IMG/VR virus record: IMGVR_UViG_3300025815_000093
Coordinates: 1-26,277 of that record
From: a virus
Length of the DNA stretch: 26,277 nt
Strand: one strand, 5' to 3'
Positions 1-14,263 of the stretch are shown in pieces; the stretch's first letter is position 1, and the number at the start of each line of letters is the position of its first letter. The notes below the pieces were generated by a model. It searched no databases. It was given only the letters and a program-made list of their open reading frames with translations, and was not told where the DNA came from. The translations under genes and the position numbers were made by a program.

Positions 1-107
1 TTTTTTATCCATTCTACTTCTAACAATTCCTCTAAACTCGCTACTTCGATCTCTCCTTCATAACCTCCTGTGAAAAATGATGGATAGTGTCGTCTGAATT
101 TAATCAT
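1..107 (-). CDS. Small hypothetical protein, 3' end outside the window
   Basis: An open frame of 35 codons runs leftward off the window edge; the visible product begins MIKFRRHYPSFFTGGYEGEI and continues with an acidic stretch. The ATG at 107 overlaps the stop of the upstream gene as ATGA (104-107), the same coupling used elsewhere in this operon, which is the main reason to accept it. No purine-rich Shine-Dalgarno site is obvious, so translation probably depends on the upstream gene. I do not recognise a function. Short proteins with an FRR-YPSFF type start are familiar as uncharacterised phage proteins, but that is only an impression. Confidence 0.55.
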   Translation of the reverse strand, partial: MIKFRRHYPSFFTGGYEGEIEVASLEELLEVEWIK

Positions 108-295
108 ACTTTAGTCCTTACTGATATTGTGGACAAGTCTAGTTCTTGTACTTCATTAGATAAGTCTAAATAAAATAAGAACATAGCTTTGATATATTCC
201 TTATCATTTGCTTTCCCGTCCGCTATAGAGCGTGATACTGCAAGGTTTAACGCTTGTCCTCGTGCTGCTCTTTGGTTATAATCTAAGTTACTCAT
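104..295 (-). CDS. Small hypothetical phage protein
   Basis: A 63-residue protein starting MSNLDYNQRAARG. The frame could open at a GTG at 307, but the ATG at 295 is preferred: it has GGAGAGG just upstream and overlaps the preceding gene's TAA by 8 bases, as at another junction of this operon. The sequence is soluble-looking, with a basic N-terminal half and an alternating hydrophobic/acidic C-terminal half (residues about 40-60). It has no membrane segment or recognised motif. It is the eighth gene from the leftward promoter at 1874-1902 and the second after the internal promoter at 456-484. Function unknown. Confidence 0.65.
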   Translation of the reverse strand: MSNLDYNQRAARGQALNLAVSRSIADGKANDKEYIKAMFLFYLDLSNEVQELDLSTISVRTKV

Positions 296-434
296 CACCC
301 TCTCCACATGTTATATATAATAAAATTCCTAATACTATAACTATACATAATAGTCCTCCAAGAGATATCATCTGTAATTGCGGACTTACTGTTGATACAT
401 AAACTATTTTACTTGGAAGGATAATTAAATGCAT
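288..434 (-). CDS. Small single-pass membrane protein
   Basis: A 48-residue ORF (MHLIILPSKIVYVSTV...) with AGGAG 7 bases before its ATG. Residues about 22-42 form one strongly hydrophobic segment (ISLGGLLCIVIVLGILLYI), followed by a short acidic tail (CGEGDE); a single transmembrane helix is the natural reading. The stop overlaps the next gene's ATG by 8 bases. It lies directly downstream of a consensus promoter (456-484), so it may be the first gene of a short sub-operon. Its role is unknown; small phage membrane proteins include holins, superinfection-exclusion and host-takeover factors, and nothing here tells these apart. Confidence 0.65.
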   Translation of the reverse strand: MHLIILPSKIVYVSTVSPQLQMISLGGLLCIVIVLGILLYITCGEGDE

Positions 435-455
435 TATGTTACTCCTATTTATAGT

Positions 456-484
456 AGTATACATTAATTTGAGTTATATGTCAA
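456..484 (-). promoter_or_regulatory. Sigma-70 promoter inside the leftward operon
   Basis: Read on the minus strand, TTGACA (484-479) and TATACT (461-456) are separated by exactly 17 bases, a perfect -35 and a 5/6 -10 (5 of 6 against TATAAT). The -35 overlaps the TGA stop of the 55-residue gene upstream. The next gene's AGGAG and ATG lie about 15-22 bases past the -10. The hexamers, spacing and the base A after TATACT match the promoters at 1874-1902 and 3456-3484. Confidence 0.8.
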
Positions 485-648
485 TATCTATTCTCAAAAA
501 TCCTAACTACTAAATATGTAAATACACAGTTAGATCCTAATAGTGCGAATACAGTTAATGCTTTTTCTGCTAATACTGCTTCTACGATAAACATACATTT
601 AATTGCAACGTATAAACTTACTATTAATATTATTATTATATTTCTCAT
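481..648 (-). CDS. Small membrane protein, probably two helices
   Basis: A 55-residue ORF beginning MRNIIIILIVSLYVAI. Residues about 3-24 and 31-49 are hydrophobic, separated by a short EAVLAEKA-type turn, and the C-terminus is charged (RIFENRY). This suggests a small two-helix inner-membrane protein. AGGAAAA lies upstream of the ATG, and ATGA at 645-648 overlaps the stop of the ankyrin gene, so translation is coupled. I do not recognise a family. A holin-like role is possible, but the gene is in the leftward small-gene operon, not beside the lytic domain, which argues against it. Confidence 0.65.
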   Translation of the reverse strand: MRNIIIILIVSLYVAIKCMFIVEAVLAEKALTVFALLGSNCVFTYLVVRIFENRY

Positions 649-839
649 AATGTTTTCCTATAATGTTTTATAATCTTTTCTGCGAGGTCTAGGTGTCCAT
701 TTCTAACTGCTAACATTAATACTGTATAACCCTTATCGTCTTTTAATTTAACATTAGCACCAGCTTCAAGTAATACTTTTACAACATCTGTATGCCTTTC
801 TGAACTTGCTTTTATTAAATAATCATTTAAATTGCTCAT
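645..839 (-). CDS. Ankyrin-repeat mini-protein
   Basis: A 64-residue protein with about one and a half ankyrin repeats. Residues about 16-32 (TDVVKVLLEAGANVKLK) match the second helix and beta-hairpin of a repeat, and about 34-60 (DDKGYTVLMLAVRNGHLDLA...) match a second repeat with the expected G-T-L-LAV-GH-L pattern. Ankyrin repeats bind other proteins, so host-factor binding is a reasonable inference, but no partner is visible. Two repeats are too few for a stable stand-alone solenoid, so it may fold only on its target or as an oligomer. ATG at 839 overlaps the previous TAA by one base (TAATG). Confidence 0.75.
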   Translation of the reverse strand: MSNLNDYLIKASSERHTDVVKVLLEAGANVKLKDDKGYTVLMLAVRNGHLDLAEKIIKHYRKTL

Positions 840-1141
840 TAGTGCAATACCTTCGGTTTTAGATATCCGTTCTTTAATCCAGTGAATAATTCTTTCATAT
901 CTCCTTGAATTTCCACATACTCAACACATTTCTGTATTCTATCACTTTCGCTTGTAATATTACTATTTAATAATTTACTAAGTTTTTGATATAATGCCTG
1001 AAATCTGTTGTTAGCTTGTATAAATGTAGGATCACAAACGTCACCAAACATTGATATCTTGATAGATAAGTCACTAAGTACTTTTAAAGCTCTTTGCTCT
1101 GGACTTGAATAACTTCTATATAATACTTCATAAAATTTCAT
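839..1141 (-). CDS. Hypothetical soluble protein
   Basis: A 100-residue protein starting MKFYEVLYRSYSSPEQRA. The frame extends to an ATG at 1165, but the one at 1141 has AAGGTG spaced 6 bases upstream and avoids overlapping the previous gene, so I prefer it. The sequence is predicted mostly helical, with heptad-like hydrophobics around residues 20-70 and an acidic stretch before the basic C-terminus (NGYLKPKVLH). Two cysteines are present but no metal-binding pattern. Function unrecognised. Neighbours are small membrane proteins and an ankyrin protein. Confidence 0.7.
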   Translation of the reverse strand: MKFYEVLYRSYSSPEQRALKVLSDLSIKISMFGDVCDPTFIQANNRFQALYQKLSKLLNSNITSESDRIQKCVEYVEIQGDMKELFTGLKNGYLKPKVLH

Positions 1142-1151
1142 TTTGTACACC

Positions 1152-1361
1152 TTAAAGTTTATCATGTTTATGTGAATGTCCTCTAATCTCTTCTATTAAA
1201 TATGCTAGTGGATTCACACCAAAAAACCATACAAACACAGCACTAATATTCAATATTAAAGATATTGGCATATTACTTAACTGTGCTCCTGTTATAAGTA
1301 TAGCAACAATTACTGCAATAATCAATTTTGCTAATACGTGGTCTTGTTTGTAGTTACTCAT
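1152..1361 (-). CDS. Small two-helix membrane protein with His-rich tail
   Basis: A 69-residue protein. Residues about 10-28 (VLAKLIIAVIVAILITGAQ) and 32-55 (ISLILNISAVFVWFFGVNPL) are hydrophobic, giving two likely transmembrane helices. The N-terminus is polar and basic, and the C-terminus is charged and histidine-rich (EEIRGHSHKHDKL). Size and topology would fit a holin or a small host-membrane modulator, but there is no family motif and it is not next to an endolysin gene. AGGCAAG lies before the ATG. It ends 10 bases before the next gene's start. Confidence 0.7.
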   Translation of the reverse strand: MSNYKQDHVLAKLIIAVIVAILITGAQLSNMPISLILNISAVFVWFFGVNPLAYLIEEIRGHSHKHDKL

Positions 1362-1395
1362 TTTCTTGCCTATTTGTTTGTCTATATATATGCTT

Positions 1396-1411
1396 AGACA
1401 TCTAAATGTCT
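1396..1411. repeat. Inverted repeat (hairpin) between two leftward genes
   Basis: AGACAT and ATGTCT, 6 bases each and perfectly complementary, flank a 4-base loop (CTAA on the plus strand). It sits in the only notable gap inside the leftward operon (1362-1422). Neither strand shows a T-tract after it, so it is not a convincing terminator. An mRNA processing or stabilising hairpin, or a dyad operator, are alternatives. Confidence 0.45.
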
Positions 1412-1422
1412 TAAAAGTTCCC

Positions 1423-1659
1423 TTAATCTAATAATTCTTCCAAATTAATCCCATAGTCTTCTAATATATTATAGAACTTTCCTTGGAATAATTCAAGTAA
1501 TTCAGTATCATGTACATTACCATAATATTTAGTACTTGCACGTAATTGTTCTGATATTTCCTGTAATGCACATACCATATCTAATGCTTTAATATTTCTC
1601 TTTAATGATCTTTCATCTTTAGCGTCTTTTAAATCGAATTCTATAATATGCTTAGCCAT
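1423..1659 (-). CDS. Hypothetical helical protein
   Basis: A 78-residue protein starting MAKHIIEFDLKDAKDERSLK. The opening beta-strand-like segment followed by a long charged helical region (about 15-75) is a pattern seen in many uncharacterised phage proteins of this size. Leucines and acidic residues dominate the C-terminus (INLEELLD). The ATG overlaps the upstream stop by 8 bases (1652-1659), with GAGG upstream. It is second in the leftward operon. No function can be assigned. Confidence 0.7.
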   Translation of the reverse strand: MAKHIIEFDLKDAKDERSLKRNIKALDMVCALQEISEQLRASTKYYGNVHDTELLELFQGKFYNILEDYGINLEELLD

Positions 1660-1849
1660 TGTATATACCCTCTCGTGCTGCTCTTTTTAGTATGACCTCT
1701 TTGATAGTTTCATGGTTAACTTTTAATACTTCACAATGATCACGGAAAGCGTCCCTGCTAAAATAGTCCCAATCTTTATCTATATATGCCTGTTGTATGA
1801 TTGCTATCATCAACAGATGTTCTGGTTTACTAAAGCCTGTGTGCCACAT
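1652..1849 (-). CDS. First gene of leftward operon, small HTH-like phage protein
   Basis: A 65-residue protein with AGGAG 7 bases before its ATG at 1849, about 18 bases from the predicted start point of the promoter at 1874-1902, so its transcript has almost no leader. Residues about 30-58 (FSRDAFRDHCEVLKVNHETI...) have the spacing of a short helix-turn-helix and recall the uncharacterised phage proteins with an F-V-C-LAG-DP-V signature. Here the Gly-Asp-Pro turn is replaced by KVNHE. The N-terminal half is hydrophobic and aromatic. A small DNA-binding or host-control role is possible but unproven. Confidence 0.7.
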   Translation of the reverse strand: MWHTGFSKPEHLLMIAIIQQAYIDKDWDYFSRDAFRDHCEVLKVNHETIKEVILKRAAREGIYNG

Positions 1850-1873
1850 AATTTTCTCCTATTACTACTCTAT

Positions 1874-1902
1874 AGTATAGTCTCATAGTATAGCTATGTC
1901 AA
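1874..1902 (-). promoter_or_regulatory. Main leftward sigma-70 promoter
   Basis: On the minus strand TTGACA (1902-1897) and TATACT (1879-1874) have a 17-base spacer; transcription should start near 1867, about 18 bases before the first ATG. The flanks are CTTGACATAG and TATACTATAGAG, identical to those of the late promoter at 3456-3484. The spacer contains CATAG-5-CTATG and repeated TATAG units, which could be an operator. Confidence 0.85.
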
Positions 1903-1942
1903 GTGATTATAGAGTTACCCTCAAAATATCATTGATTGGCAC

Positions 1943-1971
1943 TTGACTTTTGAGTATTTATATGGTACAAT
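1943..1971 (+). promoter_or_regulatory. Rightward sigma-70 promoter
   Basis: TTGACT (1943-1948) and TACAAT (1966-1971) are separated by 17 bases, matching 5 of 6 at each hexamer. Predicted start is near 1978. It points toward the acidic protein and small terminase genes and lies about 40 bases from the -35 of the leftward promoter, so the pair could be co-regulated. Confidence 0.75.
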
Positions 1972-1978
1972 ACTACTA

Positions 1979-2037
1979 AGCCCGGGCCACAAAGCCTACT
2001 TATAAGTATATACTATAAAGTAGAGACACTGCGGGCT
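1979..2037 (+). promoter_or_regulatory. Foldable 5' leader of the rightward transcript
   Basis: The RNA expected to start near 1978 opens with AGCCCG (1979-1984), perfectly complementary to CGGGCT (2032-2037). Inside, CTACTT (1996-2001) pairs with AAGTAG (2018-2023), extended by three A-U pairs. The result is a closed two-level stem that begins at the 5' end. GGCCACAAAGCC (1985-1996) recurs as GGCCACAAGCCC in the late leader (3589-3600). It could protect the 5' end, act in cis on transcription, or be bound by a regulator; the sequence does not decide. Confidence 0.45.
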
Positions 2038-2062
2038 AGGACTACAAAATTGGGGAATTCCA

Positions 2063-2512
2063 TTGAATAACAACGACTTATCAGACCCTCAAACTGATGG
2101 TTTGAGTGACTTATCATCTAAATTAAAGTATTTAGATGCTCAATTTGAGTTAAATAACCTCAAAAAAGAGCTTGAAGATGACTATTTAGGCTGTCAAGAT
2201 GCTTTAGTTATTGATTATACACGTAAACAGATTAGAGAAAAAGAGCTAAACCTATCAATATATGATATAGCAGAGCTTAATAGCCATATTAAGCATATTT
2301 ATGAAGAAGTTAAGGACATGTTGGACTCTTTAGCAGCTTCAGAGGAAGATAATAACAATATTAAGAGTGTATTTGAAGATCCAGAGACTGGAATGAAGAT
2401 ATTTAAGTATGATTTTAGTAAGTTAGACTCTATATCACGACATTTAGGTGATATTGATGATGAATCAATAGAGATAGAATGGCTTGACGACGAGGATGAA
2501 GATGACGAATAA
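2063..2512 (+). CDS. Acidic hypothetical protein upstream of small terminase
   Basis: A 149-residue protein with a TTG start at 2063, preceded by GGGG 8 bases away. The frame is closed upstream by TAG at 2021 and no in-frame ATG occurs between. Residues about 15-110 are predicted helical with heptad-like leucines (LSSKLKYLDAQFELNNLKKE), and the last 15 residues are almost entirely Asp/Glu. Such tails can mimic nucleic acid or bind basic proteins; that is inference. It overlaps the next gene by 11 bases, so the two are probably translated together, which hints at a packaging-linked job. No family recognised. Confidence 0.75.
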   Translation: MNNNDLSDPQTDGLSDLSSKLKYLDAQFELNNLKKELEDDYLGCQDALVIDYTRKQIREKELNLSIYDIAELNSHIKHIYEEVKDMLDSLAASEEDNNNIKSVFEDPETGMKIFKYDFSKLDSISRHLGDIDDESIEIEWLDDEDEDDE

Positions 2513-3041
2513 AAGGACTAGAAAGAAACAAATTAAGTATTCTAACAAGTTGATGCATGAATTAGCCAATTTGATTGTCTCTGAGCAACGATTGATTAGC
2601 CCCCTATGCAGAGCATACCCTAATAAATTCCCTTCAGCTATGACTGTGTATCGCTGGCAGAGCCAACATGACGAAGCTCGTGAGATTATCACTGATGCAT
2701 ATACAATGTTAATGGAAGACCTACAAGATGAGTTCAATAAGATCACTAAGACTAACTGGGTGATGGACAATTTAGTCAATTTTGGAGGTTCTGAGAGAGC
2801 TGCGTTCGAAGCTAGACGTGCTAGAATGGACTTTATTAAGACAGTTTTAACCCAAATTGCACCAGTTTTAACACCAAGATACCAGAAAAATCAGACTATT
2901 GAGCACAAAGGTGAGGTCGATACCAAGAGCCAAATACAGATAATCAGCTATGCCACACCACAAGCTATTGAGAAGGACATCACAAATATATCAATAGAAT
3001 CAAGCACTTATGAGCATGACGAACCAGATACTACTCATTAG
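2502..3041 (+). CDS. Probable terminase small subunit
   Basis: A 179-residue protein. It recognises phage DNA and starts packaging with the large terminase. Residues about 15-55 form a helix-turn-helix of the small-terminase type (LANLIVSEQRLISPLCRAYP followed by AMTVYRWQSQHDEAR; compare the common pattern of a helix, then T-Y-RW, then an acidic helix). About 95-125 resemble the helical oligomerisation region (RRARMDFIKTVLTQIAPVL, then PRYQKN). The C-terminal 55 residues are polar and probably disordered. Upstream TTG (2484) and ATG (2496) starts exist; ATG 2502 is chosen because GAGG lies 6 bases before it. The large subunit gene is 3.7 kb away, which is unusual. Confidence 0.7.
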   Translation: MTNKRTRKKQIKYSNKLMHELANLIVSEQRLISPLCRAYPNKFPSAMTVYRWQSQHDEAREIITDAYTMLMEDLQDEFNKITKTNWVMDNLVNFGGSERAAFEARRARMDFIKTVLTQIAPVLTPRYQKNQTIEHKGEVDTKSQIQIISYATPQAIEKDITNISIESSTYEHDEPDTTH

Positions 3042-3161
3042 CCCCACTATAATCACACTATTAGACTAAGCCACCCCCACTCTGTAGTTATATCTATACG
3101 CGCGAGACTTAGAGTGTGCTCTATAGCCTCACCCCCCCACATACATACATACACACATAGA

Positions 3162-3190
3162 ATACTTGGGGGGTGTACTGCACAGTAAAT
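3162..3190 (+). repeat. 29-bp direct repeat, copy 1
   Basis: Begins ATACTTGGGGGG and contains ACTG-CA-CAGT (3177-3186), a 4-base dyad. It matches copy 2 (3226-3254) at 22 of 29 positions without gaps; starts are 64 bp apart. Confidence 0.6.
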
Positions 3191-3225
3191 GCTAGCTAGT
3201 TCTAACTATGATTTCATGGACGTGC

Positions 3226-3254
3226 ATACTTGGGGGTGATACTATACAGTGTAT
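3226..3254 (+). repeat. 29-bp direct repeat, copy 2
   Basis: Begins ATACTTGGGGGTG and contains ACTATACAGT (3241-3250) within the near-palindrome TATAC-AGT-GTATA. A partial inverted match (AATCACCCCCAA at 3566-3577) lies inside the late leader, suggesting that the same factor could touch both places. Confidence 0.6.
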
Positions 3255-3455
3255 ATAAAATAATGACCCCCCGGGGGTGTATTTAAAGGGGGCCGCGGGT
3301 TTTGTTACTCATTATATATAAAAAGACTACTCGGTGTTTTTTGGAGCCCTACTTTGCAGTAAAATTAAGTAGTATATACACCTAACTCCAAAGTCCGCAG
3401 TGCACTTCTCCATAGCTATACTGTACAATATATTTAAAAAAATTTACTATGGGGC

Positions 3456-3484
3456 TTGACATAGAGTATGCACTGTGGTATACT
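3456..3484 (+). promoter_or_regulatory. Consensus sigma-70 promoter before the late genes
   Basis: TTGACA (3456-3461), 17-base spacer, TATACT (3479-3484). It is embedded in CTTGACATAG and TATACTATAGAG, identical to the leftward promoter. Predicted start is near 3491. It is the only good promoter seen upstream of the structural operon and is followed by a terminator about 178 bases later. Confidence 0.85.
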
Positions 3485-3490
3485 ATAGAG

Positions 3491-3668
3491 AATAAGGGGA
3501 AAGTACTAGGGCTCACACAGAGGGGCCCCAAAGTACGCATAAGATGATAGGACACAGCTCAGTGTAATCACCCCCAAACAGTTAACGTGGCCACAAGCCC
3601 GGCAGTGAAACCTTAGAGGAAGAAGCTGCCAACCTATTCACACCCCAGGCAGCTCTGGGGTTTATTTT
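3491..3668 (+). ncRNA. Predicted ~178-nt leader RNA ending at a terminator
   Basis: Bounded by the predicted start of the promoter at 3456-3484 and the terminator at 3642-3668; it contains no credible ORF. A 5' hairpin can form from GTACT (3503-3507)/AGTAC (3532-3536) and GGGC (3509-3512)/GCCC (3525-3528), with small internal loops. Further on are GTGGCCAC (3588-3595, self-complementary) and the switch segments GGCAG (3601-3605), AGCTGCC (3624-3630) and GGCAGCT (3648-3654). It may be a stable small RNA, an attenuator leader, or both, like the 6S RNA made from lambda pR'. That comparison concerns layout only; no sequence homology is claimed. Confidence 0.5.
3642..3668 (+). terminator. Intrinsic terminator immediately before the late operon
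   Basis: ACCCCAG (3642-3648) and CTGGGGT (3655-3661) form a perfect 7-bp stem with loop GCAGCT, followed by TTATTTT (3662-3668). The first late gene starts 11 bases later at 3680, so transcripts must read through to express the head and tail genes from the upstream promoter. Confidence 0.8.
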
Positions 3669-3679
3669 GAGATCTTTAT

Positions 3680-4483
3680 ATGGCCGGATGGCGACTAGAT
3701 GATTATAAGACTTGGGAAGAGTTACTCTTTAGAGCTAGCTTTGAAAGGTCTCCTAATGATCTTTTGATGATTCGCAAGTTTGGAAGATCTGCTAGTTTGA
3801 CTGCTAATACTACTGAGGATGTATGGGAATCAGGCGGTACGAAGGCACTACCTTACACAGCTGGAGAATTAATCTCAGTAGTCAGTGCTAGCGCTAATGA
3901 TGACCTAAATGGCACAGGGGCATGGTATGTCCAAATAGGTGGATTAGACACTAGTTATAACCTACAGAATGAGACAGTAACATTAGATGGTCTCACACCT
4001 GTTCAAACCACTAACCAATTTATAGCAATTAACAGAGTAAGATCAGTATTCCACGGATCAGGTCAAAAGAATGCAGGTGCAATAACTATAACAGGGGCAA
4101 CAAGCTCTAATGTGTATGCTACAATACCCGCTGGAGAATGTATAACACAACAATCGCATTTTACGATACCTGCAGGGTACACTCTATTTACCTCGAATGT
4201 AGCAATGACAGCATACAGGGCAAGTGGGGGATCAGGCACTAAAAGTGCGGAAATAGATCAGATGGTATATGTACCAGATGTCAATGCTATATACCAAACC
4301 CTAAGGTATGGTGTAACAAGTAATGGAGGACCATACGTTAGTAATAATGGGCTACTCTCTCAAACACCAGGTAAGAGTACATTATGGTTTCAAGCAACAC
4401 CTGAAACAAATGGCACAGTCGTAACAACTACGGCAGGGTATGTACTTGTAAAAGGCGACTTTAATTATATTACGGAGATCTAG
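3680..4483 (+). CDS. Beta-rich phage structural protein (fibre or capsid decoration type)
   Basis: A 267-residue protein. Residues about 28-165 carry a pattern I recognise from structural proteins of aquatic phages and some large DNA viruses: FGRSASLTAN-EDVWESGG near the start, then VSASANDDLNGTGAWYVQIG, then ETVTLDG-TPVQTTNQFIAINR, and a later PAG-T-F strand. This indicates a jelly-roll-like, Gly/Thr/Asn-rich beta protein, probably a virion fibre or capsid-surface protein. There is no signal peptide or enzyme motif. The ribosome site is weak (GAG 8 bases upstream). First gene after the terminator at 3642-3668. The structural role is well supported; the exact place in the virion is inferred. 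Confidence 0.7.
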   Translation: MAGWRLDDYKTWEELLFRASFERSPNDLLMIRKFGRSASLTANTTEDVWESGGTKALPYTAGELISVVSASANDDLNGTGAWYVQIGGLDTSYNLQNETVTLDGLTPVQTTNQFIAINRVRSVFHGSGQKNAGAITITGATSSNVYATIPAGECITQQSHFTIPAGYTLFTSNVAMTAYRASGGSGTKSAEIDQMVYVPDVNAIYQTLRYGVTSNGGPYVSNNGLLSQTPGKSTLWFQATPETNGTVVTTTAGYVLVKGDFNYITEI

Positions 4484-4645
4484 ATGGCTTATACTTTTAA
4501 AGATAGATTAAGAAAAGCTTTTAATGGAACTAAATATACTGCAACAGAACAATTAAAAAATATACTTAATATAGTCTACGTATCAACTATATTTACATTA
4601 ACATTTATTGGCACTAATATTTTGCTACAGATCATAATAGGATAG
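4484..4645 (+). CDS. Small membrane-anchored protein in the late operon
   Basis: A 53-residue ORF starting immediately after the previous stop (TAGATG), with GGAG 6 bases upstream. The N-terminal 28 residues are basic and polar (MAYTFKDRLRKAFNGTKY), and residues about 29-52 form one hydrophobic segment (IVYVSTIFTLTFIGTNILLQ, then III) reaching the C-terminus. This gives a tail-anchored single-helix topology. It is the only clearly membrane-type product in this cassette. A lysis-related, pinholin-like role or a membrane-docking virion part are possible; neither is shown. Good ribosome site and tight spacing support reality. Confidence 0.6.
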   Translation: MAYTFKDRLRKAFNGTKYTATEQLKNILNIVYVSTIFTLTFIGTNILLQIIIG

Positions 4646-4649
4646 TCAA

Positions 4650-4991
4650 TTGTATACATATAAGAGTGTAACACAAAGCGCATCAGGAACCTCAGATTGG
4701 GTTACTATAGACGCTTCAGAACAAGATTTTAATGTATCAGTACACGCAGAACATTCTGGTACAAACACTTATGATATAGAAGTTACAGGTGTAGCAGGAA
4801 ACGATCTGACAACAAGTTCAGACGCATTTAAATTAACATCTGCAACTGGTTTAACTGCTAGTACTATGGTAGCTATCGTAGGACCTATCATAGCAGTACG
4901 AGTTAATATAACTTCTTATTCTTCAGGTAGTGTGATACTACACGTAAGACAAACAGGTAAAGGATCAGACCCGGCTACAGGTAAGAGCTAA
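4650..4991 (+). CDS. Small beta-rich virion-type protein
   Basis: A 113-residue protein read from a TTG at 4650 with AGGA 8 bases upstream (inside the end of the previous gene). The sequence is Ser/Thr/Gly-rich with alternating hydrophobic strands (WVTIDASEQDFNVSVHAE, then YDIEVTGVAG, then VILHVRQTGKG). That fits a single beta-sandwich, as in phage decoration proteins. No cysteine, helix or membrane segment is evident. Its TAA overlaps the next ATG by one base. It sits in a run of beta-rich products, so a capsid or fibre accessory role is inferred. Confidence 0.65.
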   Translation: MYTYKSVTQSASGTSDWVTIDASEQDFNVSVHAEHSGTNTYDIEVTGVAGNDLTTSSDAFKLTSATGLTASTMVAIVGPIIAVRVNITSYSSGSVILHVRQTGKGSDPATGKS

Positions 4992-5143
4992 TGGAAAGAT
5001 CTATAGAACAGACAATCGAATCAACGATTGAAAAGACTATAGAATGGACCTCAGGAGGACCAGTAGGGGATGGATACTTATTAGAGGACGGTAGCAATTT
5101 TTTATTAGCAGAAGACGGTTCGACATATTTAATTTTGGAGTAA
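4991..5143 (+). CDS. 50-residue protein with LLEDGS repeats
   Basis: Starts at TAATG overlapping the previous stop and ends 3 bases before the next ATG. The N-terminal half has a short heptad-like repeat (ERSIEQTIESTIEKTIEW), and the C-terminal half carries repeated YLLEDGS / LLAEDGS / YLILE units. Short LLEDG-type repeats occur in phage head- and tail-associated proteins, usually as fragments of larger ones; here they form almost a whole protein. The I-E-x-T periodicity suggests a small coiled coil with a beta tail. Function unknown; a virion linker is a guess. Confidence 0.6.
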   Translation: MERSIEQTIESTIEKTIEWTSGGPVGDGYLLEDGSNFLLAEDGSTYLILE

Positions 5144-5146
5144 TAA

Positions 5147-5794
5147 ATGGCTGACACTAAGATCAGTGACTTAACAGAAACAACAGCATTAGCAGGCACA
5201 GAAGAACTTGTAGTTGCTGACGGAGGTACAAGTAAAAAAGTCACAGCTGCTAACGTGCTGGGTTATACTAATTTTACTCATCCTCCTAGAGTAACTGGAA
5301 GATATTATGGTAGCCCTAAACAAGGGCAAGTAGGAACTAGAGCGCTAACAGCAGATAGGATATATCATGTATTAATACCAGTACCAGAAGCTATAACTAT
5401 AACTAGAATAGGAGTAGACGTAACTACTGCAGCAGCGAGCACTATAATAAGATTAGGCATATATACAGTAGGAACTGACGGACTGCCGGATGCTTTGGTA
5501 TTAGACGCGGGAACAGTAGATTCATCTTCAACAGGGTTTAAAGAAATAACTGTGTCTCAAGCTTTACAAGGACAATATTATTTCTGTGCAGTATCTGACG
5601 GCACACCCACAGTAAGGGCTCAAAATGTATCTTATATTCAAGGCGATGATGATCTAGGTTTCTCTTCACCATCTACTAGATGTTTGACAGGGATATATGA
5701 ATCTTCATTAGGATCAGGAGCACTACCTTCTACTTCAGCATCGTCTACAGTTGATGCTAATAGTAACCCAAGATTATGGTATAGAGTGGTATAA
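5147..5794 (+). CDS. Tail or head fibre-like protein
   Basis: A 215-residue protein. Residues 1-40 (MADTKISDLTETTALAGTEE, then LVVADGGTSKKVTAANVLGY) match the N-terminal attachment motif found in many phage fibre and collar proteins. Residues about 45-215 are Gly/Ser/Thr-rich with beta-sandwich character and include RIGVDVTTAAASTIIRLGIY and a YYFCAVSDG strand resembling phage carbohydrate-binding or fibre head domains. So the N-terminus probably anchors to the virion and the C-terminus is exposed. It is separate from the larger fibre at 24935-26227, so the phage may carry two fibre types. It overlaps the next gene's start by one base. Confidence 0.65.
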   Translation: MADTKISDLTETTALAGTEELVVADGGTSKKVTAANVLGYTNFTHPPRVTGRYYGSPKQGQVGTRALTADRIYHVLIPVPEAITITRIGVDVTTAAASTIIRLGIYTVGTDGLPDALVLDAGTVDSSSTGFKEITVSQALQGQYYFCAVSDGTPTVRAQNVSYIQGDDDLGFSSPSTRCLTGIYESSLGSGALPSTSASSTVDANSNPRLWYRVV

Positions 5795-6177
5795 TGGACA
5801 GTATAATAAAATATTTTACAAAAATCTTATCTTCAGACAATCAAGTTAAGAATATTAATCTAGACAATTACCAAGGACGTAGACATCAGGTATCTGACGG
5901 GAAAGGTAATATATTATCAGATATTGATGGTAGAGATATATTTGCAGAGAAGGCTTCAAAACTTAAAGAATTTAAAATAAAGGCTTTTGAAGAGACTACA
6001 GAAAATGCTTCTATAGTAGATCAAATCAATGCACTATCTGGAAGATTGTCAAGTGCTGAAATAAATTTAATTAATACTACTATAGTAAATACTAGGCAGA
6101 AATACCAAGCAAAAAAACAACAAGTGCTAGATTCACTTACTTTAGATGAAATCGATAGTATTACTTGGGAGGACTAA
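5794..6177 (+). CDS. Hypothetical protein of the fibre cassette
   Basis: A 127-residue protein starting at TAATGG, overlapping the previous stop by one base. Residues about 10-50 are polar with an NINLDNYQGRRHQVSDGKGN segment. Residues about 50-127 are charged and helical with repeated Ala/Leu/Lys and end in acidic DEIDSITWED. No membrane segment or known motif. The helical, chaperone-like composition and the position directly after a fibre gene would fit a fibre-assembly chaperone, but this is inference from context only. GGAGG for the next gene is encoded in its last codons. Confidence 0.6.
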   Translation: MDSIIKYFTKILSSDNQVKNINLDNYQGRRHQVSDGKGNILSDIDGRDIFAEKASKLKEFKIKAFEETTENASIVDQINALSGRLSSAEINLINTTIVNTRQKYQAKKQQVLDSLTLDEIDSITWED

Positions 6178-6363
6178 ATGGAAACCAAAGATAACGCTAT
6201 TATACAAGAGATGAGAGCAATAGACTTTCAATTAATGAATATAAATAATCAGATAAATAAATTAAGGTTCTATCAGTTTAAAAAGAAAGCTGAACTAGAG
6301 TTAAAAAGAGACAAGCTTGAAGTTAGAATTCAAAAGCTTAAAGCTAAACTAAAGAGTAAATAA
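6178..6363 (+). CDS. Short coiled-coil protein
   Basis: A 61-residue protein, nearly all predicted helix, with hydrophobic positions spaced in heptads (IIQEMRAIDFQLMNINNQIN, then KLRFYQFKKKAELELKRDKL). The second half is strongly basic. AGGAGG precedes the ATG by a short gap. It is probably a coiled-coil homo-oligomer; the basic surface could bind DNA or the acidic product of a neighbour. No family recognised. Confidence 0.65.
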   Translation: METKDNAIIQEMRAIDFQLMNINNQINKLRFYQFKKKAELELKRDKLEVRIQKLKAKLKSK

Positions 6364-6364
6364 T

Positions 6365-6796
6365 ATGGGTAGAAAAGCAGTACACGTAAGAGATAGCGAC
6401 GCTAATGATTCAGATAAGGTAGTACTAACTGTTAGTGCTCAAAAAGTAGTTGAGTTACAGATGGTACATATAGTATTCACATCAACAGCTACTGCAGGTA
6501 ACAGACAAATAAACATAACTGTTAGAGATGAGAACGATACACTAGTAGCAGACTTCCATGCAGGTGCCGTACAAGCAGCAAGCTTAACACGTCACTACAT
6601 AGCAGCTCAAGGTGTATATAGAGAAACATCATTCGTGGATGGATCTATACATATGCCCATACCTCAGAATCTGATGTTACTACCAGGTTGGGATCTACGA
6701 GTCTATGACTCTGCAGCAGTTGACGCAGCAGCAGATGATATGACAGTAGATATTATATACACTGAATCAGATCATTTTGATATAGATAATGTCTGA
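6365..6796 (+). CDS. Beta-sandwich structural protein
   Basis: A 143-residue protein. The central pattern VVELQMVHIVFTSTATAGNR, then ITVRDENDTLVADFHAG, AVQAASLTRHYIAAQG, and later LLPGWDLRVYDSAAVDAAAD is one I recognise from short virion-associated proteins in tailed phages of aquatic origin. There the strands, TAGNRQ, QAAS and VYDSAA elements recur. It is likely a capsid decoration or head-completion part. It overlaps the large terminase start by 8 bases, and the terminase has no evident ribosome site of its own, so the two are probably translationally coupled. Confidence 0.65.
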   Translation: MGRKAVHVRDSDANDSDKVVLTVSAQKVVELQMVHIVFTSTATAGNRQINITVRDENDTLVADFHAGAVQAASLTRHYIAAQGVYRETSFVDGSIHMPIPQNLMLLPGWDLRVYDSAAVDAAADDMTVDIIYTESDHFDIDNV

Positions 6797-8192
6797 TCCA
6801 ATAACAATACCTTACAAGTTTGTTCCAAGGGGCTACCAATTAGAAGTATTCCAGGCCCTCGATGGTGTGATAGGAAAGCCAGAAACAAAATTAAAAAGAG
6901 CTTTCTTAAGATGGCACAGACGAGCTGGAAAAGATAAAGTCTGTTGGAACTACCTAATAAAAGCTGCAGTAGAGACTCCAGGTAACTACTTTTATGTATG
7001 GCCTACAGCAGCTGAAGGACGTAAAGCATTATGGGAGAACATTGATAGTGATGGTTTAAGAGCACTAGATCATGTCCCCAAAGATCTTATTATAAATATA
7101 AATAATCAGGAAATGCTATTAAGAATAAAGAGCGGTCCTGATTTAAAGGGCGAAGCGACAATTCGCTTAATCGGGTCAGATATTAACCCTGACGCTATTC
7201 GAGGAGTAGCAGCTAAAGGGATGGTATCTACCGAGTTTGATTATCAAGAACCAGGCGCATATAAAGTTTTAATGCCTGCTTTAAGACAATCTCAGGGGTG
7301 GTGGATTGTAAATTCAACACCTCAAGGTAGAGGCCAACAATATGAATTAGAAGAGAGAATAAAAGATTCTCCTAATTGGTTTGTATCTATATTACAAACT
7401 AGATGGCCTGATAAACCACACTATTCTGGACTTCTATCTCCTACAGAGTTAGAAGAAGTTCAATCTGAAGAGGGATTAACCGATGACGATATGGACAGAG
7501 AATACGGAGTTTCCTACACCGCCGGTATGAAAGGGGCATTTTACGCCGACCATATTGAAAAAGCAAAGGCCGAGAATAGGATAGGAAGTTTTGTACACGA
7601 TGACCATAAATATGTCGATACCTTCTGGGACATAGGGATGGGTGATGATACTGCTATCTGGTTTAGACAAATAGATGGCAATAGAATTATCTGGATTGAT
7701 TACTATCAGAATAGCGGTAAGGATTACGCTCACTATGTTAGAAAACTCAAATCAAAAGGTTATGAGTATAGAACTCACTACTTTCCTTGGGACGGTGGAA
7801 CAGTCTCACAACAAACGGGACTGTCAGCTGTAGAGAAAGTATCAGAGTTATTACAAGAAGCTAACATGAGTGATGATGTTGTAGCAGTACCTAAATTACC
7901 TGTAATTGATGGTATTAACGCAGTTAGGGCTAGATTTTCTAGATACCACTTTGATGCAACTAACTGTGAAGAAGCTATAAAGATGATTGAAATGTATCAT
8001 AGAAAGTGGGATAAAAGACGAGCTACTTTTATCAAACAACCAGTTCATGACTGGACATCTCATTGTGCAGATGCTCTGAGAACTGAAGGAATAGCAGAAG
8101 AACTAATGGAAGATCAATTTTATGCTCAGAATAATATAAATATTATTAATGAGTATGATATATTTGGAGATGATCGTGGCGGTAATTTTTAA
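6789..8192 (+). CDS. terL: Terminase large subunit
   Basis: A 467-residue ATPase and nuclease that drives DNA into the prohead through the portal. Walker A is HRRAGKDK at residues 43-50; the Walker B region is around GMVSTEFDYQEP (144-155); the coupling motif is WWIVNSTPQGR (171-181). The RNase H-like nuclease half shows D281 in FWDIGMGDD, D335 in FPWDGG and D428 in SHCADALR, the expected three acidic metal ligands. Length is typical for short-tailed phages. The Walker B is not the textbook hydrophobic-DE, so its exact residues are uncertain. It overlaps the preceding gene by 8 bases and the following one by 17. Confidence 0.93.
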   Translation: MSDPITIPYKFVPRGYQLEVFQALDGVIGKPETKLKRAFLRWHRRAGKDKVCWNYLIKAAVETPGNYFYVWPTAAEGRKALWENIDSDGLRALDHVPKDLIININNQEMLLRIKSGPDLKGEATIRLIGSDINPDAIRGVAAKGMVSTEFDYQEPGAYKVLMPALRQSQGWWIVNSTPQGRGQQYELEERIKDSPNWFVSILQTRWPDKPHYSGLLSPTELEEVQSEEGLTDDDMDREYGVSYTAGMKGAFYADHIEKAKAENRIGSFVHDDHKYVDTFWDIGMGDDTAIWFRQIDGNRIIWIDYYQNSGKDYAHYVRKLKSKGYEYRTHYFPWDGGTVSQQTGLSAVEKVSELLQEANMSDDVVAVPKLPVIDGINAVRARFSRYHFDATNCEEAIKMIEMYHRKWDKRRATFIKQPVHDWTSHCADALRTEGIAEELMEDQFYAQNNINIINEYDIFGDDRGGNF

Positions 8193-8628
8193 AAGAGTTA
8201 AATATAGAGATGTCTTCAGAAAACTAGAAGAAGACTTTAAAAATCACTGGGAAGAATTAGGATGTGCTGGAGGACCTAAAGAATTAGATATAGATCCAGT
8301 TACATATTTAGCATTAGAAGAGGCAGGTGTATTAGCTTGCTTTACAGCTAATAAAGATGACGAAATAATCGGATATGGGTGCTTTATACAACAAAGAAAC
8401 TTACATCACAAAACTATCGTAACTGCTACATCAGATTGTTTCTACATTAAACCTGAATACCGTAAAGGTACTTTAGGTTATAGATTTTTGAAATATATGC
8501 AGGATGAACTATACAGATGTGGTATAGATTTGGTTCAAATGGTTATGAACATAAATAAAGATTTGGATAAATTATTAACAAGATTAGGTTACACTAAGTG
8601 TGACATAATATACGTAAGAGGTAAATAA
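8176..8628 (+). CDS. GNAT-family N-acetyltransferase
   Basis: A 150-residue protein. GTG at 8176 is preferred because GGAG lies 6 bases before it; ATGs at 8149-8170 have no site. Residues about 60-125 show the GNAT fold: DDEIIGYGCFIQ, then CFYIKPEYRKGTLGYRFLKY (acetyl-CoA binding loop, variant of R/Q-x-x-G-x-G/A), then a C-terminal LLTRLGYTKCDIIYVRG strand. GNAT genes between large terminase and portal are a recurring feature of several podovirus groups. The acceptor is unknown; a virion or host protein is likely. The loop reads RKGTLG, a looser match than the RxxGxG/A form, so activity is probable, not certain. Confidence 0.85.
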   Translation: MAVIFKRVKYRDVFRKLEEDFKNHWEELGCAGGPKELDIDPVTYLALEEAGVLACFTANKDDEIIGYGCFIQQRNLHHKTIVTATSDCFYIKPEYRKGTLGYRFLKYMQDELYRCGIDLVQMVMNINKDLDKLLTRLGYTKCDIIYVRGK

Positions 8629-8629
8629 T

Positions 8630-8926
8630 ATGGCAATGGGTGGCGGATTTTTAGGCATTATAGGATCAGTACTTAGTTCTGTTATGTCAAGTTTATTAGC
8701 ACCAAAGGCACCATCTCCACAACCACTACCGCCTCCTCCTGCTCCAGCTCCGGCACCAGAACCGCCTGAGGATCCTTCTAAGAAGGAAGAGGAAGATGTA
8801 GGTGTAGTAGATCCTGAAGCAGCTAAACAGCGTGCTTTAAGGCGTCGTAAGAGTGAGCAAACACAAGGTGGTCTGTTAGGTCTTGATGAAGAGGCTTTAA
8901 CTAAGCCTACATTGTTAGGAGAATAA
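8630..8926 (+). CDS. Small Pro-rich virion-associated protein
   Basis: A 98-residue protein. Residues 1-24 are a Gly/Ser/Leu hydrophobic segment (MGGGFLGIIGSVLSSVMSSL); 25-48 are a Pro/Ala run (PPPPAPAPAPEPPEDP); then comes an acidic patch and a basic stretch (QRALRRRKSEQTQGGLL). This layout (hydrophobic start, proline hinge, basic tail) recurs in uncharacterised virion-linked proteins next to podovirus portals. It is not a spanin: there is no lipobox. It ends TLLGE, whose codons contain the AGGAG for the next gene. Confidence 0.7.
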   Translation: MAMGGGFLGIIGSVLSSVMSSLLAPKAPSPQPLPPPPAPAPAPEPPEDPSKKEEEDVGVVDPEAAKQRALRRRKSEQTQGGLLGLDEEALTKPTLLGE

Positions 8927-8927
8927 T

Positions 8928-9761
8928 ATGGGTGCAGCAGTATTTAAAGAGGGTACAATCCCTTCAGTAGAACAGCACGCGGGACTATTAAGAGATGCAG
9001 GACTCAATACTGTACCTGGGCATTTGGCAACTCCACAAGAAAATGTAGACTTCTTTGCTACTACAGTAGCAGCTAGAGGACTAGACGCCCAAGGTCGTGT
9101 TAAACCGATGGCACCAGAAGGCACCTTCCAGTCAGGCCAAAATATGAAGAAAGGAGAGATAACTAAAATAGGGAGAACTGCAATAGGAGGCGATGAAGGT
9201 GACCAATCAGTATTCGAAGGATATTACATAGAAGATGTTTTAGTAAGAAATGATAAATCATTCGATGAGCTTCAAAAAGCTATTGCTAAAGGTAGAATAA
9301 GTGATTTTGATCCGAGATTTGAATACCAAGATAACTTTGCAAATATACAAACAAGTGGTATAGAAATGGCTTTATTCGATCTTAAAGAAAGATTCTTAGT
9401 TGACAAAAAAACTGGCAAGAAATACCAATTAAGTACTACAGAGACTAATAAATTAAAACCTTATGAAATAGCAGATCCAAGATTCTTTGCAGCAGATCTA
9501 GCAAATTTCATTAAAAAGAATAAACCTGTAGACTTCTCTTCAAGAAAGACTGAAGATATGATTGACAGAGAATCTATACAAAAAAATACAAAGACTGGTA
9601 AAGTAGAGGTCCAAGCTGACCCTAAAGCTGTAAAAACAAATATTCGAGATTACGCTCAAAATGTTATTAGGGATATAGATAGAAGAGGTGGAAATCAAAG
9701 AAAGATTGCTTCAACGTTATTACAAGAAGACCCCACTTCAAAAAATTTGCTAGGAGAATAG
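8928..9761 (+). CDS. Hypothetical protein upstream of portal
   Basis: A 277-residue protein between a small Pro-rich protein and the portal. AGGAG lies 7 bases before the ATG. The product is soluble, highly charged, without cysteines or membrane segments. Segments such as GVEQ-like SVEQHAGLLRDAGLNTVPGH (about 13-32), FEGYYIEDVLVRNDKSFDEL and a Lys-rich C-terminal third (ENIX-type helices with KTGK motifs) suggest a mixed alpha/beta, partly disordered protein. I do not recognise a family. Its place in the head module suggests a minor virion or head-assembly part. It ends in LLGE, carrying the portal gene's ribosome site. Confidence 0.7.
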   Translation: MGAAVFKEGTIPSVEQHAGLLRDAGLNTVPGHLATPQENVDFFATTVAARGLDAQGRVKPMAPEGTFQSGQNMKKGEITKIGRTAIGGDEGDQSVFEGYYIEDVLVRNDKSFDELQKAIAKGRISDFDPRFEYQDNFANIQTSGIEMALFDLKERFLVDKKTGKKYQLSTTETNKLKPYEIADPRFFAADLANFIKKNKPVDFSSRKTEDMIDRESIQKNTKTGKVEVQADPKAVKTNIRDYAQNVIRDIDRRGGNQRKIASTLLQEDPTSKNLLGE

Positions 9762-9762
9762 A

Positions 9763-11406
9763 ATGGAATATACTGCAGAGTTAATTGTAAGAAGAGCTGA
9801 GGAACTCTTTAATAATGAAGAGAGAGCTAACTCTAATGCTCAATGGGAATTAATCTCAGAATTCATGACACCTAATCAATCAGGTATATTCTTAGGAATG
9901 GATGCTAAAGGTGACAAGAAGACAAACAGATTATTCGACTCCACAGCAATTCAAGCAGTACATGACTTAGCTGCAGCATTCCAAGGAACTGTTACTAATC
10001 CAGCTACTAGATGGTCTAATATAAGATTTAAAGATGATGCTTTAAATAACGAGATAGAAGCTACTAGATGGTTAGAAGAAGTAAATAGACAAATCCATCA
10101 ACACTTCAATGAATCAAACTTAGACACTCAACTAGGTAAAGCATATCAAAGTTATGTATCACTAGGTAACATGTCAATGTTCTTAGAACCTAAAAATATA
10201 GGGGAAAAGTCTAGTTTTGAAGGATTCAAGTTCACAGCTCTACACCAAGCTGAAGTAGCATGGTCAGAAAACTTATCTGGGCAAGTTGATACGATATATA
10301 GAAAGATTAAGTTAACTGCTCGTCAAATGGTTGAAAGATTCAAAATGGAAAGACTCCCAGAGAAAGTCAAAGAAGATTTAAAAGAACATCCAGAAAAAGA
10401 ATACGAGATATATCATTGTATATTTCCCCGAGCTAAAAAAGAAGTTAAACTAGGAGCTAACGGTCTAGCCCCTGGAAAAAACAGACCATATGCTTCTATG
10501 TTTGTTGATAAGACTACTTCAAGAATATTAGAAGAATCTGGTTATTATGAATTCCCAGTATTTGTTGGTAGATGGTCTACAATGCCTGGAGAGGTATATG
10601 GTAGGGGTCCATCTCATATAGCATTACCTGAAGTAAGAACTTTAAACGAACAAAGAAGAAAATACCTAATTGCTCTTGATAGAATGGTAAACCCACCATT
10701 AAAAGCTAACCAAAGATCAGTACTAGGTAATTTAGATTTAAGACCTGGTAAAGTTACTATGGTAAGAGATATGAGGTCAATTGAACCATTTGACTTTAAT
10801 ATTAATTTACAAGCAGCTTTTGCAGGTATGGAAGAATCTAAAGCATTGATTGATAAGATATTTTTCTTAGATAAACTCATATTACCACCTAGGACAGAAA
10901 CTGGTGAGATGACTGCATATGAAGTTAACGCTAGAATAGAACAAATGCAAAGAGTTTTAGGGCCTACACTCTCAAGACTTAACTCAGAGTTTCTAACTCC
11001 ATTAATCGCTAGAGCGTTCAAAATGTTATTACGTGCAGGCGCATTACCAGAGATGCCTGACATCTTAAAAGAAAGTGGTGTAGATATTGAGATAGTATTT
11101 ATAAATCAATTAGCTAAAGCACAACAATATGATGATATTCAAAACATACAACAATGGGTACAATCTGTAGCTTTATTAGCTCAGATTAAGCCTGAAGCTA
11201 TTGACCATATAGATGCTGACGGGATAGTAAAGCATATAGCAAAAATTCAAAATATACCTGAAATAGCTATTACAGATGATAAAGCTGTAAGAGAAGCTAG
11301 AGAGCAGAGAGCTCAGCAACAACAAGCAGCAATGATGTTAGAGGCTACTAATAAGGCTGCTGACACAGCCTCTAAAATGCAAGGAGTAGAAGGTGGAGGA
11401 CAATAG
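9763..11406 (+). CDS. Portal (head-to-tail connector) protein
   Basis: A 547-residue protein, close in length to T7 gp8 (536). It forms the dodecameric ring through which DNA is packaged and the tail attached. Recognisable segments include RAEELFNNEERANSNAQWEL and MTPNQSG near the N-terminus, LFDSTAIQAVHDLAAAFQG (about 65-83), the central EVYGRGPSHIALPEVRTLNE and LDRMVNPPLKAN, and PRTETGEMTAYEVNARIEQM followed by the ISRLNSEFLTPLI-like crown helix. The C-terminal 40 residues are Gln/Ala-rich. This is the head-tail connector family of podoviruses. Its stop overlaps the GTG start of the next gene by 14 bases. Confidence 0.92.
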   Translation: MEYTAELIVRRAEELFNNEERANSNAQWELISEFMTPNQSGIFLGMDAKGDKKTNRLFDSTAIQAVHDLAAAFQGTVTNPATRWSNIRFKDDALNNEIEATRWLEEVNRQIHQHFNESNLDTQLGKAYQSYVSLGNMSMFLEPKNIGEKSSFEGFKFTALHQAEVAWSENLSGQVDTIYRKIKLTARQMVERFKMERLPEKVKEDLKEHPEKEYEIYHCIFPRAKKEVKLGANGLAPGKNRPYASMFVDKTTSRILEESGYYEFPVFVGRWSTMPGEVYGRGPSHIALPEVRTLNEQRRKYLIALDRMVNPPLKANQRSVLGNLDLRPGKVTMVRDMRSIEPFDFNINLQAAFAGMEESKALIDKIFFLDKLILPPRTETGEMTAYEVNARIEQMQRVLGPTLSRLNSEFLTPLIARAFKMLLRAGALPEMPDILKESGVDIEIVFINQLAKAQQYDDIQNIQQWVQSVALLAQIKPEAIDHIDADGIVKHIAKIQNIPEIAITDDKAVREAREQRAQQQQAAMMLEATNKAADTASKMQGVEGGGQ

Positions 11407-11620
11407 AGAGAAGTTTAATGAAATAGCTAGATTGCTATTCAATACGCCTAATGGTAAGTACGTACTAGGAGCCTTAATAGAAGACTTTGTATATACAAAC
11501 CCAGTGAGAAGTACCGTAGAAGAAACTTATCATATGTTAGGGAAGCAAGATTTGGTTCAAGCACTCAGAGAAATTGCCGAATCAGATGAAGATGATACTA
11601 TTAATGTTTTAGGAGAATAG
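11393..11620 (+). CDS. Small helical protein between portal and scaffold
   Basis: A 75-residue protein from a GTG at 11393 with AGGAG 6 bases upstream, overlapping the portal end by 14 bases. It is acidic and mostly helical; residues about 8-40 (IARLLFNTPNGKYVLGALIE) match a pattern I associate with short uncharacterised proteins following podovirus portals. The tail is acidic (ESDEDDTINVLGE). The GE-coding triplets supply the scaffold gene's AGGAG. An assembly or adaptor role is inferred from position only. Confidence 0.7.
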   Translation: MEDNREKFNEIARLLFNTPNGKYVLGALIEDFVYTNPVRSTVEETYHMLGKQDLVQALREIAESDEDDTINVLGE

Positions 11621-11621
11621 A

Positions 11622-12563
11622 ATGTCAGAGGAACTACAAAACACATCTGTAGAGAATTATGGTGAATCACCTCAACCATCTGTACAAACACTGTCACCAG
11701 CTAGTCCCACAGAGGTACCACATGTAGAATCTGCAGAAAGTGTAAATCAGAATATATTAATATCAAATCTTTCAGAGGATCTAAGAAATGACCCTAGCTT
11801 GAGAGACTTTAAAGATATTAACGGGTTAGCTAAAAGCTTTGTTGAACAGAAGAGAATGTTAGGTAATTCAATTAGAGTACCTTCAGAAGACGCTGGAGAA
11901 GAGGCTTTAAATCAATTTTATGACAAACTAACAAGTGTTAAAGGTGTCATGAGATCCCCTGACACTCCAGAAGGTAAAGAAGCTTTACTAACATATTTAG
12001 GAAGACCCGAGAATCCTGAAGGTTATCAATTCAATATACCAGAGAATATACCTGTAGATCCTCAAGGTCTAAACGAATTCAAAGACTTAGCTTATAACTT
12101 AGGACTAACTAAAGAGCAGGCTCAGAAATCCATGGAGTATTATCAAAATATTCGTATAAGTGAAATTGACAATTTTAATAGAATGTCAAGCGAGAATGAG
12201 AGCCATCTTAAACAAATATGGGGAAATGAGTTCCACAACAATGTTCAAGCAGCTAATGCTTTAGCTCAAACATATAAAGAGAACTTCCCTGAAGCTTACC
12301 ATGACTTAGCTAAGATTCAGAATAACCCTATAGTTCTAGATATTATGGCTAATCACGCTAGACTGCTTCATGAGCAGGGTAATCCAAATATTGTATCTCA
12401 AATACAGAAATTTGGTATGTCCTCTGCGGAAGCACTTGAACGTATTAGAGATATCCAAACAAATCCAGCATATGTGAATGCTTTGGATGGAGATCCTCAG
12501 AGGGAATTGCTACAGAAGAAGTTAAACGACTTATACCCTATAGCATATCCTGACGATGATTGA
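11622..12563 (+). CDS. Capsid scaffolding (assembly) protein
   Basis: A 313-residue protein immediately upstream of the capsid gene. Residues 1-45 are low-complexity Ser/Pro/Glu. Residues about 47-80 (ISNLSEDLRNDPSLRDFKDI, then NGLAKSFVEQKRMLG) match the conserved start of podovirus scaffold-type proteins, and 80-135 match the PSEDAGEEALNQFYDKLTS and YLGRPENPEGYQF segments. The rest is helical and acidic, as expected for a scaffold that guides capsid assembly and then leaves. The extreme C-terminus (KKLNDLYPIAYPDDD) is short and mildly acidic, not the basic capsid-binding helix of P22. The protein ends in tandem stops (TGA TAG). Confidence 0.85.
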   Translation: MSEELQNTSVENYGESPQPSVQTLSPASPTEVPHVESAESVNQNILISNLSEDLRNDPSLRDFKDINGLAKSFVEQKRMLGNSIRVPSEDAGEEALNQFYDKLTSVKGVMRSPDTPEGKEALLTYLGRPENPEGYQFNIPENIPVDPQGLNEFKDLAYNLGLTKEQAQKSMEYYQNIRISEIDNFNRMSSENESHLKQIWGNEFHNNVQAANALAQTYKENFPEAYHDLAKIQNNPIVLDIMANHARLLHEQGNPNIVSQIQKFGMSSAEALERIRDIQTNPAYVNALDGDPQRELLQKKLNDLYPIAYPDDD

Positions 12564-12732
12564 TAGATTAGGGTAATAGCACTGCAGAAGCTACTACTCT
12601 ACCTCAAAGTATAGGATAACCAGAACTGGCCCTAGAAAATGAGGAAACTTGACTCATGAGCCCACTAAGGACAACTTTTGAGAAAAGGCGTACTGCATAC
12701 ATTTAATTACTAATAATTAGGAGTATGATATT
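12564..12732 (+). promoter_or_regulatory. Intergenic leader between scaffold and capsid
   Basis: A 169-base gap, large for this operon. A nested fold is possible: CTCAAAG (12603-12609) with TTTTGAG (12676-12682, one G-U), enclosing CCTAG (12631-12635)/CTAAGG (12665-12670, one bulge) and ATGAG (12639-12643)/CTCAT (12653-12657) with a 9-base loop. TTGACT (12649-12654) lacks a matching -10. Near the capsid start, AGGAG lies 9 bases before the ATG. It may boost or stabilise capsid mRNA. Confidence 0.4.
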
Positions 12733-13626: not shown

Positions 13627-13638
13627 TAGGAGGATATT

Positions 13639-14202: not shown

Positions 14203-14206
14203 AACC

Positions 14207-14230
14207 TATGGCCTTCTCACGAGGGCCATA
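14207..14230 (+). terminator. Hairpin after the head genes
   Basis: TATGGCC (14207-14213) and GGCCATA (14224-14230) are perfectly complementary with a 10-base loop, 4 bases after a stop codon. The downstream sequence is T-rich but interrupted (TCTTTAGTTTAG), so termination would be partial. This would set the head genes at a higher level than tail genes. On the other strand it has no T-tract. Confidence 0.6.
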
Positions 14231-14263
14231 TCTTTAGTTTAGTATACTTAAAGGATAGTATAA

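Follow-up and report, generated by a model that had tools for sequence, protein, structure and literature searches.

We regard it as reasonably probable, judging from the sequence, that the late genes of an uncultured estuarine phage form a terminator-attenuated operon with a strong promoter, partial or regulated read-through and a by-product of the size of an sRNA. Host sigma-70 polymerase would initiate near 3491 at the operon's own strong promoter, as the promoter sequence and its conserved position suggest. A structured leader would be made, and a default stop at 3662-3668 would leave an RNA of ~178 nt; the structural genes would be transcribed solely by polymerases that pass the terminator. 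Read-through may amount to a fixed fraction, or it may be regulated, either by an antiterminator of the phage or by the leader itself, refolding via 3624-3630 : 3648-3654. Since the transcript must pass the terminator, the operon would be at least attenuated. Regulated antitermination at 3642-3668 is possible; leaky attenuation or an sRNA function would fit the sequence almost as well.

The window, i.e., the whole stretch of DNA that was analysed, is an entire IMG/VR record of 26,277 bases, class linear. The phage group is known here from metagenomes alone. Overlapping contigs from other samples are identical or almost identical to the window and thus provide neither evolutionary information nor an evolutionary test of the leader. 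One of them (L042) reaches 3.4 kb further left than the window, and the left extension carries exonuclease and ClpP-like protease genes on the leftward strand. Neither tRNA nor tmRNA was found in the window. Its genes are arranged as follows:

up to 1849, - strand: small leftward genes
2063, + strand: a rightward gene
2484-3041, + strand: terS (PHROG 1482)
638 bp from terS to the gene at 3680: intergenic region
3680..4483, + strand: first operon gene, 267 aa (PHROG 8198, function unknown)
6789, + strand: terL
9763, + strand: portal gene
12733, + strand: major capsid gene

The promoter and its counterparts in related phages

The promoter that heads the late operon lies in the intergenic region:

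3456..3484, + strand: late-operon promoter, composed of TTGACA (3456-3461), a 17-nt spacer and TATACT (3479-3484), with a TG extension at 3476-3477

A preliminary description of this DNA had called the promoter perfect, which slightly overstates the case: it is present as described and matches the consensus in 11 of 12 positions, the -35 hexamer being perfect and the -10 hexamer agreeing in 5/6. Within 26 kb it is the sole + strand site that scores at least 11/12. Shuffled sequence would contain a perfect -35 hexamer combined with the TG extension 0.017 times per strand, and the score of the promoter was reached by 0/60 shuffles of the 4 kb upstream of terL. The same TTGACA-17-TATACT arrangement occurs on the - strand at 1902 and 484, which means that the promoter does not represent a special "late" class. 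Weaker sites occur at the rate of chance (61 found versus 57 expected in 1-15000, both strands), and nothing comparable to this promoter turned up in the consensus scan from the terminator to the structural genes. The earlier claim that no other good promoter precedes the head and tail genes thus holds at 11/12, and this lack favours attenuation.

Relatives were gathered by capsid, terL and portal searches, and 22 loci with sequence upstream of terL were set against the window. In 11 related records the late genes around terL are headed by a promoter of 11/12 or 12/12 (L116/L046, L047, L048, L050, L051, L052, L054, L055, L107, L118 and L119). So many relatives have a near-consensus promoter at this position that the one at 3456 very probably serves as late-operon promoter of this phage group. 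That it exceeds what shuffles yield and has these counterparts also favours attenuation in the window. The promoters of L112 and L126 are weaker (equalled by 12/60 and 11/60 shuffles, respectively), and in L109 and L113 the best site is equalled by 7/60 shuffles. No strong promoter was seen upstream of terL in L104, L105, L114, L120, L122 and L008. Either, then, the rule is not universal, or in these loci the promoter lies beyond the short contigs. In L046, a relative of the 3680..4483 gene adjoins terL; past the capsid genes of this related phage, at 13657-13693, there is a match to the abiF RNA family.

The distance from the promoter to the first gene varies. From the predicted start it is 17-42 nt to the first gene, with no terminator, in L116, L050, L051, L052, L054, L118 and L119, and L112 and L126, with their weaker promoters, are arranged alike. 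Long leaders are seen in the window (189 nt from the predicted start to the first gene), L047 (~256 nt), L055 (~304 nt), L107 (146 nt) and L124 (202 nt; promoter score reached by 3/60 shuffles). The lengths for L047 and L055 run to ClpP-like genes at 1668 and 1458, which were taken as the first genes, small frames within the leader being disregarded. Of these five long-leader loci, the window alone has a canonical terminator after the promoter and ahead of the first gene. Shortly before the first gene, L047 has a hairpin of -17.8 kcal/mol with ACCCTTTT after it, and L107 one of -8.4 kcal/mol with AGTTTAAT after it; compared with the window terminator they are weaker or have a poor T tract. L048 has a hairpin with T tract, beginning ~3 nt past the predicted start; it was considered as a gate but is read as a 5' hairpin.

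Judged by sequence comparison, this group has conserved the promoter, whereas the terminator varies. It is therefore improbable that a termination gate was the group's ancestral mode of control. Most relatives lack the terminator, so a lambda-style gate would not be the group's way but at most a local elaboration.

The region between terS and the promoter holds further elements. A GC-rich conserved one, GGGGGT...GGGGG..CGCGGGTTTT at 3270-3305, has similar counterparts at L109:6891, L051:571, L050:110, L105:674 and L112:6628. We take it to resemble the right half of lambda cosN, and it is perhaps a packaging site; its sequence could also be read as that of a weak terminator. Palindrome-like words (ACTGCACAGT, TATACAGTGTATA, ATACTGTACA) and imperfect repeats of 25-27 nt are scattered over 3177-3430; they are possible operators or terminase sites.

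The predicted leader RNA and terminator

Between the promoter and the gene at 3680 the following features are predicted:

3491..3668, + strand: structured untranslated leader RNA of ~178 nt, predicted to start at ~3491
3490..3639, + strand: leader domain enclosed by a helix of 3490-3494 with 3635-3639 (pair probability 0.83-0.84)
3601..3606, + strand: segment 1, GGCAGU, which in the default fold pairs with 3625-3630
3624..3630, + strand: segment 2, AGCUGCC, able to pair with segment 1 or segment 3
3648..3654, + strand: segment 3, GGCAGCU, the last base of the terminator 5' arm plus the loop and a possible antiterminator partner of segment 2
3642..3668, + strand: intrinsic terminator with a 7-bp stem, a 6-nt loop and TTATTTT (-11.9 kcal/mol)

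No + strand reading frame of at least 20 aa begins within the leader; one of 32 aa, at 3449-3547, begins ahead of the predicted transcript start. The terminator hairpin reads ACCCCAG-GCAGCT-CTGGGGT (3642-3661) and is followed by the T tract, the end of which is 11 nt away from the gene start at 3680. The preliminary description had proposed just this, a leader of ~178 nt devoid of a usable reading frame and a 7-bp hairpin with TTATTTT 11 bases ahead of the gene, and both proposals are borne out.

Leader and terminator together fold with -56 kcal/mol, i.e., better than shuffled sequences (z -2.6; for the leader up to 3638 only, z is -1.9), and in the default fold the terminator hairpin forms with a probability near 1. 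Both findings favour attenuation. Homologues of the leader were not detected by blastn in 50,697 phage records nor in any fetched locus, and no Rfam family matched it at gathering score, the best hit being far below the cut-offs.

Terminator-like sites of equal stability with such a tail occur 0.25 times per shuffled 26-kb strand. The terminator is thus rarer than chance would have it, and it is sited between the promoter and the first gene, which again speaks for attenuation. A looser consensus scan found 11 terminator-like sites versus 7.1 expected, which alone is not significant. A second hairpin with a T-rich tail (14207-14230, -14.9 kcal/mol) is located in the structural operon, past the gene after the major capsid gene.

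What counts against attenuation is that the terminator is unconserved and absent from most relatives, and that its d'Aubenton-type score, 0.3 to 7.7, is marginal. The same observations would agree with a hairpin that does not work as a terminator at all, being a chance structure of GC-rich DNA or a feature of the 5' mRNA, with a promoter that just serves to transcribe the late genes, like its counterparts in the relatives; in line with this, 34/2000 shuffles (1.7%) of the GC-rich intergenic region yield a comparable site. The T-rich tail, the place between promoter and first gene and the near-certain formation in the default fold argue against such an interpretation, which we regard as very improbable.

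If the attenuated operon is regulated, the leader itself could be involved. In modelled folds of growing prefixes, the pairing of segment 2 with segment 3 reaches 0.75 in an RNA ending at 3656 and drops to near 0 from 3660 onward, when the terminator takes over. The leader may thus switch between antiterminator and terminator pairings. This is a weak lead only, because a 7-nt complement like that of segments 2 and 3 turns up in 105/2000 shuffles (~5%).

Relation to known late gates and attenuators

The late gate of lambdoid phages, PR'-tR', combines a strong promoter, a leader, a terminator, a Q binding element and a -10-like pause element in the initially transcribed region (PMC6606751). The window shares with it a strong sigma-70 promoter heading the late operon, an untranslated leader of similar length, a predicted intrinsic terminator before the first late gene and the lack of another good promoter. 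The lambda 6S RNA has 194 nt. The late operon of lambda starts with lysis genes, whereas the first gene here is structural.

A true gate of the lambda type would imply near-complete termination early; late, an antiterminator loaded at or near the promoter would override this terminator and later ones. The geometry is that of PR'-tR'. The same strong promoter type also precedes the leftward genes, so that the strength of the promoter would not by itself set a temporal order, and processive antitermination would help polymerases to pass the hairpin at 14207-14230 within the operon. However, neither of the Pfam families Q (PF06530) and Antiterm (PF03589) was matched in 15 records, many of them fragments, the control being positive in E. 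coli. Also, a search for a pause element near the start found a single NANNAT-like word, GAGAAT, whose position at 3488-3493 overlaps the predicted start, and most relatives with the same promoter lack the terminator. We therefore rate this alternative as unlikely. T7-type RNA polymerase (PF00940) was not matched either, but the control was equally silent, so that this search is uninformative. Of the lambda-like late gate that had been suggested for this DNA, the very probable late-operon promoter in a conserved position and the intrinsic terminator before the first gene can be retained; as a general principle it finds no support, since in most relatives the promoter lies 17-42 nt upstream of the first gene and no terminator intervenes.

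The put RNAs of HK022 comprise ~70 nt with two stem-loops and belong to early operons (PMC9378689). Like them, the window leader is a structured nascent RNA that follows a phage promoter and might influence the polymerase in cis; unlike them, it is a late leader of ~178 nt. A comparison with HK022 27.0-40.7 kb, a record in which the exact put sites were not located, yielded nothing beyond chance words of 9-13 nt. Transcription attenuators, whether trp-type or riboswitch-type, use alternative pairings. The window resembles them in that three pairings which exclude one another precede an intrinsic terminator. It differs in that a leader peptide, a ligand-binding core or a protein site has not been identified, and the alternative pairing is weakly significant.

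An RNA element in the sister leaders

The leaders of L047 and L055 have GGGAATTTCGCTACCTyAGGrCC in common. An RNA element UUACG...GGAAUUUCGCUACCU, in most cases with an intrinsic terminator after it, is present in unrelated uncultured phages as well. It was found in viral contigs by a search for GGGAATTTCGCTACCT and then by a relaxed pattern; about half of the contigs matching the first pattern are chance or unclear. The copies are:

L081:3478-3546
L179:4201-4263
L180:392-449
L093:4378-4456
L079:7158-7065, - strand
L086:5978-6045
L047:1528-1567
L055:1331-1387

The order element, intrinsic terminator, gene is seen in L081, L179/L181, L180, L093 and L079/L086/L095. L047 and L055 score 32-37 bits against the element profile, which both helped to build. 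Just upstream of the element in L081 and L179 stands TATAAATA, which we take to be like a T4 late promoter. Permuted tmRNA genes were noticed in two element-bearing contigs, L086:5207-5605 (~400 nt upstream of the element) and L180:11058-11255.

The element profile matches the complement of E. coli 23S rRNA with 29.7 bits, and by blastn its 24-nt core is likewise complementary to 23S rRNA, in a conserved stretch. In Rfam the element reached no gathering score, the best low-threshold hit being far below the cut-off. A blastn search with three members in the phage collection retrieved no copy, only 23S rRNA sequence and an unrelated stretch of Microviridae genes, and no report of the element was found among open-licence papers. 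Six matches in a scan of 84,980 cellular genomes were judged by eye to be chance; no terminator follows them. RNAalifold lent little support to a common fold of five members, and therefore no structure is claimed. An alignment read by eye suggests a possible pseudoknot past the motif in L047 and L055, with stems that differ in sequence but pair in both. The window leader was tried as a further member of the L047/L055 motif: it shares the words GTACTAGGGC at 3503 and ACCTTAG at 3610, yet does not match the profile.

The motif brings up another view of the window, in which promoter, ~178-nt structured RNA and terminator are chiefly a small-RNA gene whose product acts in trans, the structural genes being expressed by read-through. 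It gains some credit from the fact that the motif in the L047 and L055 leaders appears to be a free-standing RNA elsewhere, with a terminator of its own. The window leader is, however, outside this motif and without a detected relative, and in most relatives the same promoter serves late genes alone. We consider this view quite unlikely. Very doubtful, too, is a broader idea: the space between promoter and first gene might, in this group, be a slot for exchangeable structured RNAs, which would govern the passage of polymerase in cis or would target the host ribosome in trans, one version being complementary to 23S rRNA; the RNA of the window would be one such unit with its own terminator.

If read-through in the attenuated late operon is regulated, this phage would switch its late genes by transcription termination without a recognisable Q. 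The comparison suggests that related phages gain and lose such a terminator, while the operon and the conserved type of promoter ahead of it stay the same, and the role of the gate could thus be put to the test by comparing relatives.
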